In this document: positions 22,339 to 25,107 of the stretch, piece after piece
How positions within the stretch are numbered: position 1 is the first letter of the stretch
How the letters are laid out: each line of letters begins with the position of its first letter
Assembly: GCA_016124745.1 (NCBI GenBank)
Contig: WGNC01000025.1
Span: forward strand, 62,001-126,000
Reading direction: 5' to 3'
Source: Thiobacillus sp.
Lineage (GTDB): Bacteria > Pseudomonadota > Gammaproteobacteria > Burkholderiales > Thiobacillaceae
DNA: 64,000 bases
Translations under genes and position numbers: made by a program
Notes under the pieces: generated by a model
What the model was told of the DNA's origin: nothing
What the model saw: the letters and a program-made list of their open reading frames with translations, nothing else
The model's database searches: none

Positions 22339-25107
22339 ATGCAAGAAAAATACCTACCCTCGGAAATCGAAGGCGCCGCGCAGGCGCAGTGGGCGGCCAG
22401 CCAGGCGTACCGCGCCCATGATGCCTCCGATCGCCCCAAGTACTATTGCCTGTCGATGTTCCCCTATCCCTCCGGCAAGCTGCACATGGGGCACGTACGC
22501 AACTACACCATCGGCGACGTGCTGGCGCGCTACCATACCCTGCGCGGCTACAACGTGATGCAGCCGATGGGCTGGGACGCCTTCGGCCTGCCAGCGGAAA
22601 ACGCGGCGATCGCCAACAGCGTGCCGCCCGCCACCTGGACCTACGCCAACATCGATCACATGCGCGCACAGTTGCAGGCGCTGGGGTTTGCCATCGACTG
22701 GTCGCGCGAACTCGCGACGTGCAAGCCCGATTACTACCGTTGGGAGCAGTGGCTGTTCACGCGACTGTTCGAAAAGGGCGTGATCTACAAGAAGATGGCG
22801 AGCGTCAACTGGGACCCGGTCGATGCGACCGTGCTCGCCAACGAGCAGGTCATCGAGGGGCGCGGCTGGCGCTCGGGCGCATTGGTCGAAAAGCGCGACA
22901 TTCCGATGTATTTTTTCCGCATCACCCAGTACGCGGATGAATTGCTCTCCGGTCTCGACAGCCTGCCGGGCTGGCCCGAGCGGGTGAAGACCATGCAGGC
23001 CAACTGGATCGGCAAGAGCGTCGGCGTGCGCTTCGCCTTCCCGTACACGATCGACGGCCAGGACGACCAGTTGTGGGTGTTCACCACGCGCGCCGACACC
23101 ATCATGGGGGTGACCTTCTGCGCGGTGGCCGCCGAGCATCCGCTGGCCACCCGCGCAGCGCGGGACAACCCTGCGCTCGCTACCTTCATCGCCGAATGCA
23201 AGCAGGGCAGCGTGGCCGAGGCCGACATGGCGACGATGGAAAAGAAGGGCATGGACACCGGCCTTAGCGTTACCCATCCGCTCACCGGCGAAGCCATCCC
23301 GGTGTGGGTCGGCAACTATGTGCTGATGAGCTACGGTGAGGGCGCGGTGATGGCCGTGCCGGCGCACGATGAGCGCGATTTCGGCTTCGCCAAGAAATAC
23401 GGCCTGCCGATCAAGCAGGTGATCGATGCCCGGGAAAGCGCCCGGCAGCTGCAGCAGGCGATTGCGGATACCCGGGCGAACCGGGCGCTGAGTGCTGAAG
23501 AAGCCGACTATGCCGAGGAGCTGGCGGAACACACGACCGAGTTCACGGATCGTGTCTGGCAGGAGTGGTATGGCAGCAAAGCTGGCGTCTGCATCAACTC
23601 CGGCAAATATGACGGCCTTGATTACACGGCTGCGGTCGACGCCATCGCTGCCGACCTCGAGGCCCTGAACCTGGGTGAGAAGAAAACCCAGTTTCGCCTG
23701 CGCGACTGGGGGATTTCGCGCCAGCGCTACTGGGGCTGCCCGATCCCGATCGTGCATTGCGACACGTGTGGCGACGTGCCGGTGCCGGCCGGGCAGCTGC
23801 CGGTGGTCCTGCCCGAGGACGTGGTGCCGGATGGCAGCGGGAACCCGCTCAACAAGCGCGCCGATTTCGTCAACTGCAGCTGTCCGAAGTGCGGGGCACC
23901 GGCACGGCGCGAAACCGACACCATGGATACCTTCGTCGAGTCATCCTGGTATTACGCGCGTTACGCCTGCCCGGATTTCGACGGCGGCATGTTCGATGCC
24001 CGGGCGAACGACTGGCTGCCGGTCGACCAGTATATCGGCGGCATCGAGCACGCGATCCTGCACCTGCTGTATGCGCGCTTCTTCCACAAGCTGATGCGCG
24101 ACGAGGGCCTGTTTGGAGCTGAATATGTGCGCTCGGGCCCGGCCCTCTCCCCAACCCTCCCCCAAGCGGGGAGGGGGCAAACGCTAGGCCCAAACCGTTT
24201 TGACGAGCCCTTCGCCAATTTGCTGACGCAGGGCATGGTCATCGCCGATACCTATTACCGTGAAGCGGCCGACGGCAAGAAGACCTGGTTCAACCCGGCC
24301 GACGTCGAACTGCGTGACGGGGTGGCGACCCTGAAGTCCGACGGCCAGCCGGTGATCGCCGGCGGCACCGAGAAAATGTCGAAATCGAAGAACAACGGCG
24401 TCGATCCGCAGGCGCTGATCGACCAGTACGGCGCAGACACCGCGCGGCTGTTCACCATGTTCGCCGCGCCGCCGGAACAGAGCCTGGAATGGTCGGACGC
24501 CGGCGTCGAGGGGGCGCACCGTTTCCTCAAGCGGCTGTGGAAGCTGGTGTACGAGCACGTGCAGGGCGGCCCTCTCCCCAACCCTCTCCCGCTTGCGGGA
24601 GAGGGGGCGAACGCTAGGCCCAAACGGATAAATGACCTGCGCCGTCAGCTGCACCAGACCATCCAGAAGGTGAGCGACGATATCGAGCGCCGCAAGCAGT
24701 TCAATACCGCGATTGCCGCGGTCATGGAGTTGATGAACGCGCTGGCCCGGCTGGAAGGTGACGATGCCATGACGCGCAGCGTGCGCCAGGAAGCGCTGGA
24801 AGCTGCGGTCGTGATGCTCGCGCCCATCGTGCCGCACATTGCCGAAGCGCTGCATGCCGAACTCGGCCCGGGTGCCGCCATGACATGGCCGGTTGTGGAC
24901 GAGTCCGCGCTGGTGCAAGACGAGATCGAGCTGATGCTGCAGGTCAACGGCAAGCTGCGCGGACAGATCCGCGTGGCGGCGACTGCCCCGCGCGAGGCGA
25001 TCGAAGCAATGGCACTGGCAAGCGAGGCTGCGCAGAAGCACCTGGAAGGCCGGCCACCCAAAAAAGTGGTGGTGGTGCCGGGGCGTTTGGTTAATATCGT
25101 CGTATGA
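22339..25107 (+). CDS. leuS: Leucyl-tRNA synthetase with two repeat-derived inserts
   Basis: 922 residues; E. coli LeuRS has 860. It charges tRNA-Leu in the cytoplasm. HMGH (HIGH motif) is at residues 49-52 and KMSKS at 679-683; the editing domain (about 225-420) has [20 protein letters not shown] and the [21 protein letters not shown] loop ([20 protein letters not shown]). Two stretches have no counterpart in usual LeuRS: residues about 601-619 ([20 protein letters not shown]) and about 744-762 ([19 protein letters not shown]). Both are encoded by copies of one DNA repeat, read in different frames. The rest of the protein looks intact. First gene of a long operon; its stop overlaps lptE. Confidence 0.97.
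24141..24195 (+). repeat. REP-like palindromic repeat inside leuS, copy 1
   Basis: Begins GGCCCTCTCCCCAACCCTC, then an 8-bp inverted repeat CCCTCCCC (24155-24162)/GGGGAGGG (24168-24175), then the tail AACGCTAGGCCCAAAC. It is read in frame within leuS as [18 protein letters not shown]. Shares its head and tail with copy 2 at 24568. Confidence 0.88.
24568..24625 (+). repeat. REP-like palindromic repeat inside leuS, copy 2
   Basis: Same head (GGCCCTCTCCCCAACCCTC) and tail (AACGCTAGGCCCAAAC) as copy 1, in the same orientation. The centre is a perfect 11-bp inverted repeat CCCTCTCCCGC (24582-24592)/GCGGGAGAGGG (24595-24605). It is read one codon position shifted relative to copy 1, giving [19 protein letters not shown], still without a stop. 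Confidence 0.9.

Follow-up and report, generated by a model that had tools for sequence, protein, structure and literature searches.

The window analysed here, a stretch of 64,000 nucleotides from a Thiobacillus sp. draft genome (contig WGNC01000025.1, positions 62,001 to 126,000, with window coordinates equal to contig coordinates minus 62000), contains the leucyl-tRNA synthetase gene leuS at 22339..25107 on the forward strand, as an ORF of 922 codons with no internal stop. An ORF at 20664-21551 on the reverse strand resembles phosphoribulokinase, which we take to fit an autotroph. In a structure comparison, solved LeuRS proteins from Neisseria and E. coli are ~60% and ~50% identical, respectively, to the window LeuRS.

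Two copies of a palindromic DNA repeat lie within leuS, as the initial annotation had described. A head sequence, GGCCCTCTCCCCAACCCTC, begins at 24141, on codon position 3, and again at 24568, on codon position 1, and a tail sequence, AACGCTAGGCCCAAAC, begins at 24180 in copy 1 and at 24610 in copy 2. Inspection of the sequence and a count of codon positions agree with that description on both places and phases, and the peptides quoted for the two copies are present in the ORF translation. The copy limits, initially given as 24141-24195 and 24568-24625, have been refined on the basis of flank profiles to 24143..24205 (63 nt) and 24570..24634 (65 nt), both on the forward strand; the corresponding profile matches are G000:C31:86143-86200 and G000:C31:86570-86630. 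Copy 1 reads as a 21-residue peptide (LeuRS residues ~602-623) and copy 2 as a (G)+22-residue peptide (residues ~744-766). The bases immediately 5' of copy 1 (24112..24142, forward strand), which encode a 10-residue peptide, are extra but do not belong to the element; they are similar in one other genome of the genus (G004) and partly so in a genome from another genus (G082).

The length of 922 residues, against 860 in E. coli, is as first noted, but the two copies account for the excess only in part. An insertion of ~33 residues near residues 364-402 (23428..23544, forward strand), in which no inverted repeat was detected, also contributes. The alignment and the structural model mark this as a third insertion site, predicted to be helical here and not formed by the element; palindromic GC-rich inserts are found at the same site in G004 and G013. 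The region varies strongly across the genus: most members have VEGETFS-like sequences, G001, G005, G019 and G026 have other long sequences, and two further named LeuRS loci (L081 and L086) have 77 residues there.

An AlphaFold2 model of the window LeuRS, made with 29 relatives, has a mean pLDDT of 81.6, with values below 50 at residues 291-299, 598-618 (copy 1), 713-715 and 753-755 (in copy 2). In the model, the chain runs from a helix at 569-588 through a short helix into copy 1 and then into a strand at 625-630, and copy 2 lies between helices at 720-742 and 762-785. The rest of the LeuRS fold is intact as modelled (TM 0.86 to 5omw), and the predicted positions of both copies fit tolerated surface loops.

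Sequence, ends and distribution of the element

The element is ~65 bp in length and consists of a 36-base triplex-type core, CCCTCTCCC-CAA-CCCTCTCCC-loop-GGGAGAGGG, and a 29-base tail that finishes near CCGATTRAYG. Copy 2 has exactly the core CCCTCTCCC-CAA-CCCTCTCCC-GCTTGC-GGGAGAGGG; the blocks of copy 1 are altered. The ends were defined from 71 full-length copies, comprising 19 from this genome, 29 from G024 and the 23 best-scoring from 18 other genomes, with L243-L245 left out. Across these copies there are at most 0.28 bits of information at each of the 12 positions 5' of CCCTCTCCC and at most 0.20 bits past the tail end, with the tail fading after CCGATTRAYG. A profile from 49 hand-picked copies is sharper than that from all 71 and gives identical ends.

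When up to three mismatches are allowed, the 64 kb window contains exactly two matches to the head and two to the tail, against shuffle means of 0.19 and 0.20. Searched without mismatches, head plus tail is confined to leuS in the whole 3.35 Mb genome, with two matches, and this by itself would suggest a private leuS duplication; that explanation was overturned by the many copies found in the genome with a profile. The profile, which includes the hairpin, was built from 14 copies of this genome (a draft of 3,345,709 bases in 48 contigs) and detects 19 copies in it at E<=1e-6, or 89 matches at E<=1, the latter including opposite-strand matches on the same hairpins. These copies lie both within and between genes; a lack of further copies had been named in the initial annotation as grounds for refutation. 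Of the 40 genomes available for the genus, 22 (counting this one) have matches at E<=1e-6, and none was found at that threshold in the remaining 18. The highest copy numbers in the genus are 29, in a genome assembled as one contig (G024), and 38, in a fragmentary genome. At the level of the order, 9 of 120 genomes have matches under stricter filters, again counting this one.

Taken alone, the two leuS hairpins fold only slightly better than shuffled sequences (z -1.6 and -2.0). Covariation gives a mixed picture. Among the 14 copies of this genome, whose small number and close similarity make them indecisive, 92.7% of cells are paired; pairs changed on both sides number two, a value reached in 113 of 500 shuffles, and the covariation score was matched in 11 of 500. 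A search of Rfam gave two matches, both far under the cut-off. This small folding margin, along with the frequent matching of the reversed symmetric head at three mismatches (46 vs 59), is what a chance resemblance of GC-rich codon runs would also produce. However, head and tail are exact in both leuS copies, the tail is common to dozens of sites with definable ends, and the insert is absent in orthologues; the empty sites described below rule such a resemblance out for practical purposes.

Several copies (L204, L203, L206, L217, L223 and L224) have a second REP-like hairpin (GATGGAACT...GCCCGCAAGCGGGC...CTTAT) nested at one point in the core, and a composite of the element and this nested hairpin is open through GlcE. 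Tandem copies 63 nt apart are found in G024 (G024:C1:864403-864652; L303, L306, L308 and L315), and repeated in-frame units are present in IleRS (G010), DapC (G024) and HypF (G004 and G010), at loci L374, L286, L287 and L373.

Relation to known repeat families

Judged from its sequence, the core of the element is the known intrastrand-triplex (PIT/TM) motif. According to Holder et al. 2015 (PMC4666352), the E. coli K-12 motifs are 34-37 nt in length and always intergenic; Thiobacillus is not named in the main text of that paper. The likeness extends to a three-block core of the CCCTCTCCC / GGGAGAGGG type with short linkers and to the presence of many copies, and the three consecutive blocks of copy 2 and of the consensus could in principle fold into a G/C-rich intrastrand triplex. 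Unlike the E. coli motif as described there, the Thiobacillus element has a conserved tail of ~29 bases and is not confined to intergenic DNA, with in-frame copies in leuS and 20 of the 71 copies scored within ORFs.

A second group for comparison is the GTAG/CGTC REPs, for which a 2013 paper reported intragenic examples from several species (BMC Genomics, PMC3733652); these too are short palindromes found in ORFs, among them truB and genes for tRNA synthetases, with some dimers. If the element were an ordinary REP of this kind, it would be moved by a RAYT (a Y1 tyrosine transposase). The short, GC-rich, asymmetric hairpin and its many copies are compatible with that origin, and so is the finding that 33 of the 40 genus members have Y1_Tnp (PF01797, E<=0.001). 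Yet no GTAG or CGTC tetranucleotide stands at either end of the 71 copies, which begin with CCCTCTCCC and finish at about CCGATTRAYG, and two of the seven genomes with no PF01797 match at this threshold carry copies: the one-contig genome with 29 (G024) and a second with six (G020). A Y1 transposase is thus not required today. It may have been lost after the element spread; even so, movement by a RAYT seems an improbable account. The element also does not resemble a MITE, as its two ends are unrelated (there are no terminal inverted repeats) and no target duplication was seen, with the reservation given below for a short one.

Filled and empty sites in relatives

The LeuRS alignment includes 30 relatives, 29 of them from the 35 same-genus genomes and one from the order. 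The rows of G008 and G032 do not span sites 1 and 2, leaving 28 relatives that could be scored at the positions of the two copies. The peptides proposed as insertions are largely missing from these relatives, in keeping with the original proposal. At site 1, 27 of the 28 have no copy 1 and read LV(A/S)SDEPF or similar, and G004 alone carries the element. At site 2, copy 2 is absent in 25 of the 28, which read GGAVAAFAGGELPDAAKT-LRRQ or similar, and elements are present in G004, G010 and G014; the last is without one 12-base head unit and maintains the frame. The description of copy 2 as an insertion therefore holds with respect to its absence in 25 relatives, but it is not a pure addition, as its 22 residues occupy the place of ~16 native loop residues in the alignment, for example AVAAFAGGELPDAAKT.

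Ten other gene sites were compared using orthologues of three to five relatives each. A clear empty site exists in G005 and/or G016 for eight of the ten (HrpA site 2, GlcE, NadC, MurI, CHAD, NirB, HemF and HypF, with the HemF comparison made without G016); the inserts of NirB, HemF and HypF in this genome are tail-less relatives of the element. HrpA site 1 and BioB allow no clear reading as insertions, the loop or N-terminus being itself variable. The GlcE, NadC, HypF and CHAD sites are also filled in other species, by units that differ. Three further proteins are empty in this genome and filled elsewhere: IleRS (filled in G024, G010, G009 and G014; also empty in G005 and G016), DapC (filled in G024, with two units, and in G063; also empty in G005, G016 and G010) and RsmG (filled in G004; also empty in G010). 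A gain and a short replacement separate the filled from the empty alleles, and between filled and empty sites that are 80-90% alike no target duplication was observed, where a short one could be missed.

The LeuRS loops are also occupied outside the genus, in other betaproteobacterial lineages. Among 80 named LeuRS loci, six have a site 1 occupied by peptides that derive from palindromes, with two frames represented as determined at the peptide level; the six records are titled Nitrosomonadales (two), Gallionella (two), Sulfuricella and Sulfuricellaceae. At the DNA level, profile matches are found at site 1 in genomes of other genera (G101, G082 and G074). In a LeuRS tree built with the loops masked, 10 of 56 tips are carriers, two of which (L332 and L337) were sampled because they bear the element, and the distribution requires eight changes (gains and losses), against a mean of 9.45 when carriers are shuffled. 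The site 2 label of L101 on this tree is a false pattern match. A different repeat, with PPFVKGG- or PPFAKGG-like peptides, is found at site 2 of L088 and L108 and at site 3 of L087, in records titled Sulfuricella, Hydrogenophilales and Gallionella. Another record, L075, is titled Rhizobium sp. (MAG) and has a Thiobacillus-type LeuRS equal to that of G005 in its three loop regions; its label is probably wrong. Of the four named records that best match the window LeuRS, three bear the title Thiobacillus and one the title Rhizobium, in line with a betaproteobacterial host that is most likely Thiobacillus.

These distributions bear on whether the copies owe their present places chiefly to inheritance, recombination or the exchange of gene segments, with one old insertion per site and loss in most species. 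The near-identity of copy 1 here and in G004 suggests such a history, as the two have the extra flank in common, yet their LeuRS sequences are not neighbours in the tree (support values aside), and part of the same flank is present in G082, from another genus. On the other hand, site 1 peptides derive from different element frames across lineages (SPQPNPLPEGEG vs another 12-residue peptide), which from a single insertion would demand paired frameshifts or replacement. At site 2, the element of G010 and G004 has a different tail from that of the window copy and a head in a different frame, and the set of filled genes is particular to each genome. Placement mainly by inheritance or exchange is therefore a minority possibility, albeit the most serious of those considered against repeated insertion.

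Copies inside genes and their interpretation

A copy was called internal if both flanks had a coding score of at least 0.20 and one open frame ran through the element. By this measure 20 of the 71 copies are internal, with the reservation that the score separates only partly (medians of 0.41 for true and 0.10 for false open frames, with a false 90th percentile of 0.37). All three sense phases occur, and 19 of the 20 are in the sense direction; for the sole antisense copy (L307) the coding call is doubtful. Seventeen of the 20 are at sites with aligned orthologues, and two internal copies (L239 and L316) are at one site outside the orthologue comparison. The majority of full-length copies fall outside the internal class, with 5 of 19 passing in this genome and 6 of 29 in G024. 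The five here are two in leuS, two in hrpA and one in the gene for a CYTH-CHAD protein. Terminal or weaker in-gene cases in this genome involve NadC, MurI, a rubredoxin-reductase-like protein and FxsA, and relatives of the element that are shorter, composite or lack the tail are found in GlcE, BioB, NirB, HemF, HypF, a NodU-like protein and a VWA-domain protein. Copies near the 5' ends of the TruB, MurG, XerC, BioC and RseC-like genes were left out of the internal class, as they may precede the true start.

The invaded proteins score above curated cut-offs for HrpA, GlcE, NadC, MurI (one of its models), BioB, NirB, HypF and HemF, as do DapC, RsmG, YgiQ, PrmA and CHAD in the genomes examined; the IleRS fragment, which is cut by the end of the locus, falls under its cut-off. 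A copy in this genome, L220 (G000:C2:170547-170602), seems to shift the frame of a SagB-like ORF (TIGR03605, below cut-off), possibly a broken gene.

Stop codons were considered as the cause of the sense bias and rejected, as the antisense frames are at least as open as the sense frames (0.98, 1.00 and 0.85 vs 0.75, 0.96 and 0.73 in 48 copies). Hydrophobic residues make up a larger share of the antisense peptides (0.23-0.24 vs 0.06-0.18 for sense), and this is a possible reason for the bias.

Recurrence at many sites with definable ends, element-free sites in close relatives and the keeping of the frame together argue for insertion, and it is very probable that a palindromic mobile repeat of ~65 bp has inserted at least twice in leuS, with the frame kept, in flexible loops where its effect is near-neutral. 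The element would be non-autonomous mobile DNA, and translation of each copy would yield a flexible surface loop of about 20 residues, in most cases rich in Pro/Gly/Ala/Ser. Survival may be limited to insertions that maintain the frame in a tolerant loop, an arrangement that would lead to a few loops being hit repeatedly, and the effect on the enzyme would be close to neutral. The inserts might instead have been recruited for a function, such as tRNA contacts or regulation, a proposal that would account for their persistence in essential enzymes and for the orientation with the gene in 19 of 20 cases. It is decidedly unlikely, given that the peptide changes with the frame, that a given loop is empty in some cases and in others occupied by the element or by other repeats, and that the low confidence of the model suggests disorder.

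More tentatively, and with slightly less than even likelihood in our estimation, near-neutral insertion of a mobile repeat may extend to a separate betaproteobacterial protein-invading family with a non-RAYT mover that inserts along the direction of transcription, and that has repeatedly remodelled the surface loops of LeuRS, IleRS, HrpA and other essential enzymes, in the extreme by in-frame units in tandem. If so, one short DNA unit gives the proteome three different peptides.

One of the closest analogies is that proposed at the outset, with the Rickettsia palindromic elements, reportedly described by Ogata in 2000 and 2002. The in-frame insertion of the Thiobacillus element in conserved genes, its absence in orthologues and its further copies support a protein-invading element of this type in a betaproteobacterium. 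Both systems place palindromic DNA in frame in unrelated protein genes and add peptides to the products; in a comparison by description, drawn from a review (PMC10969869), the Rickettsia elements are ~150 bp, whereas the Thiobacillus element is ~65 bp, GC-rich and betaproteobacterial. The comparison holds for in-frame invasion and not for uniqueness to Rickettsia, given the intragenic REPs discussed above. A search of open-licence papers gave, among the matches listed, no report of this element in Thiobacillus genes, which is weak evidence of novelty.

The element provides a case of palindrome invasion of conserved genes, in frame and outside Rickettsia, with filled and empty alleles in close relatives. 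Questions raised by the Rickettsia work, namely whether the peptides are translated and harmless, how the DNA moves and why it is found in one direction, are now directly testable, and a motif said to be without exception intergenic in E. coli K-12 has a part in shaping protein sequences elsewhere.
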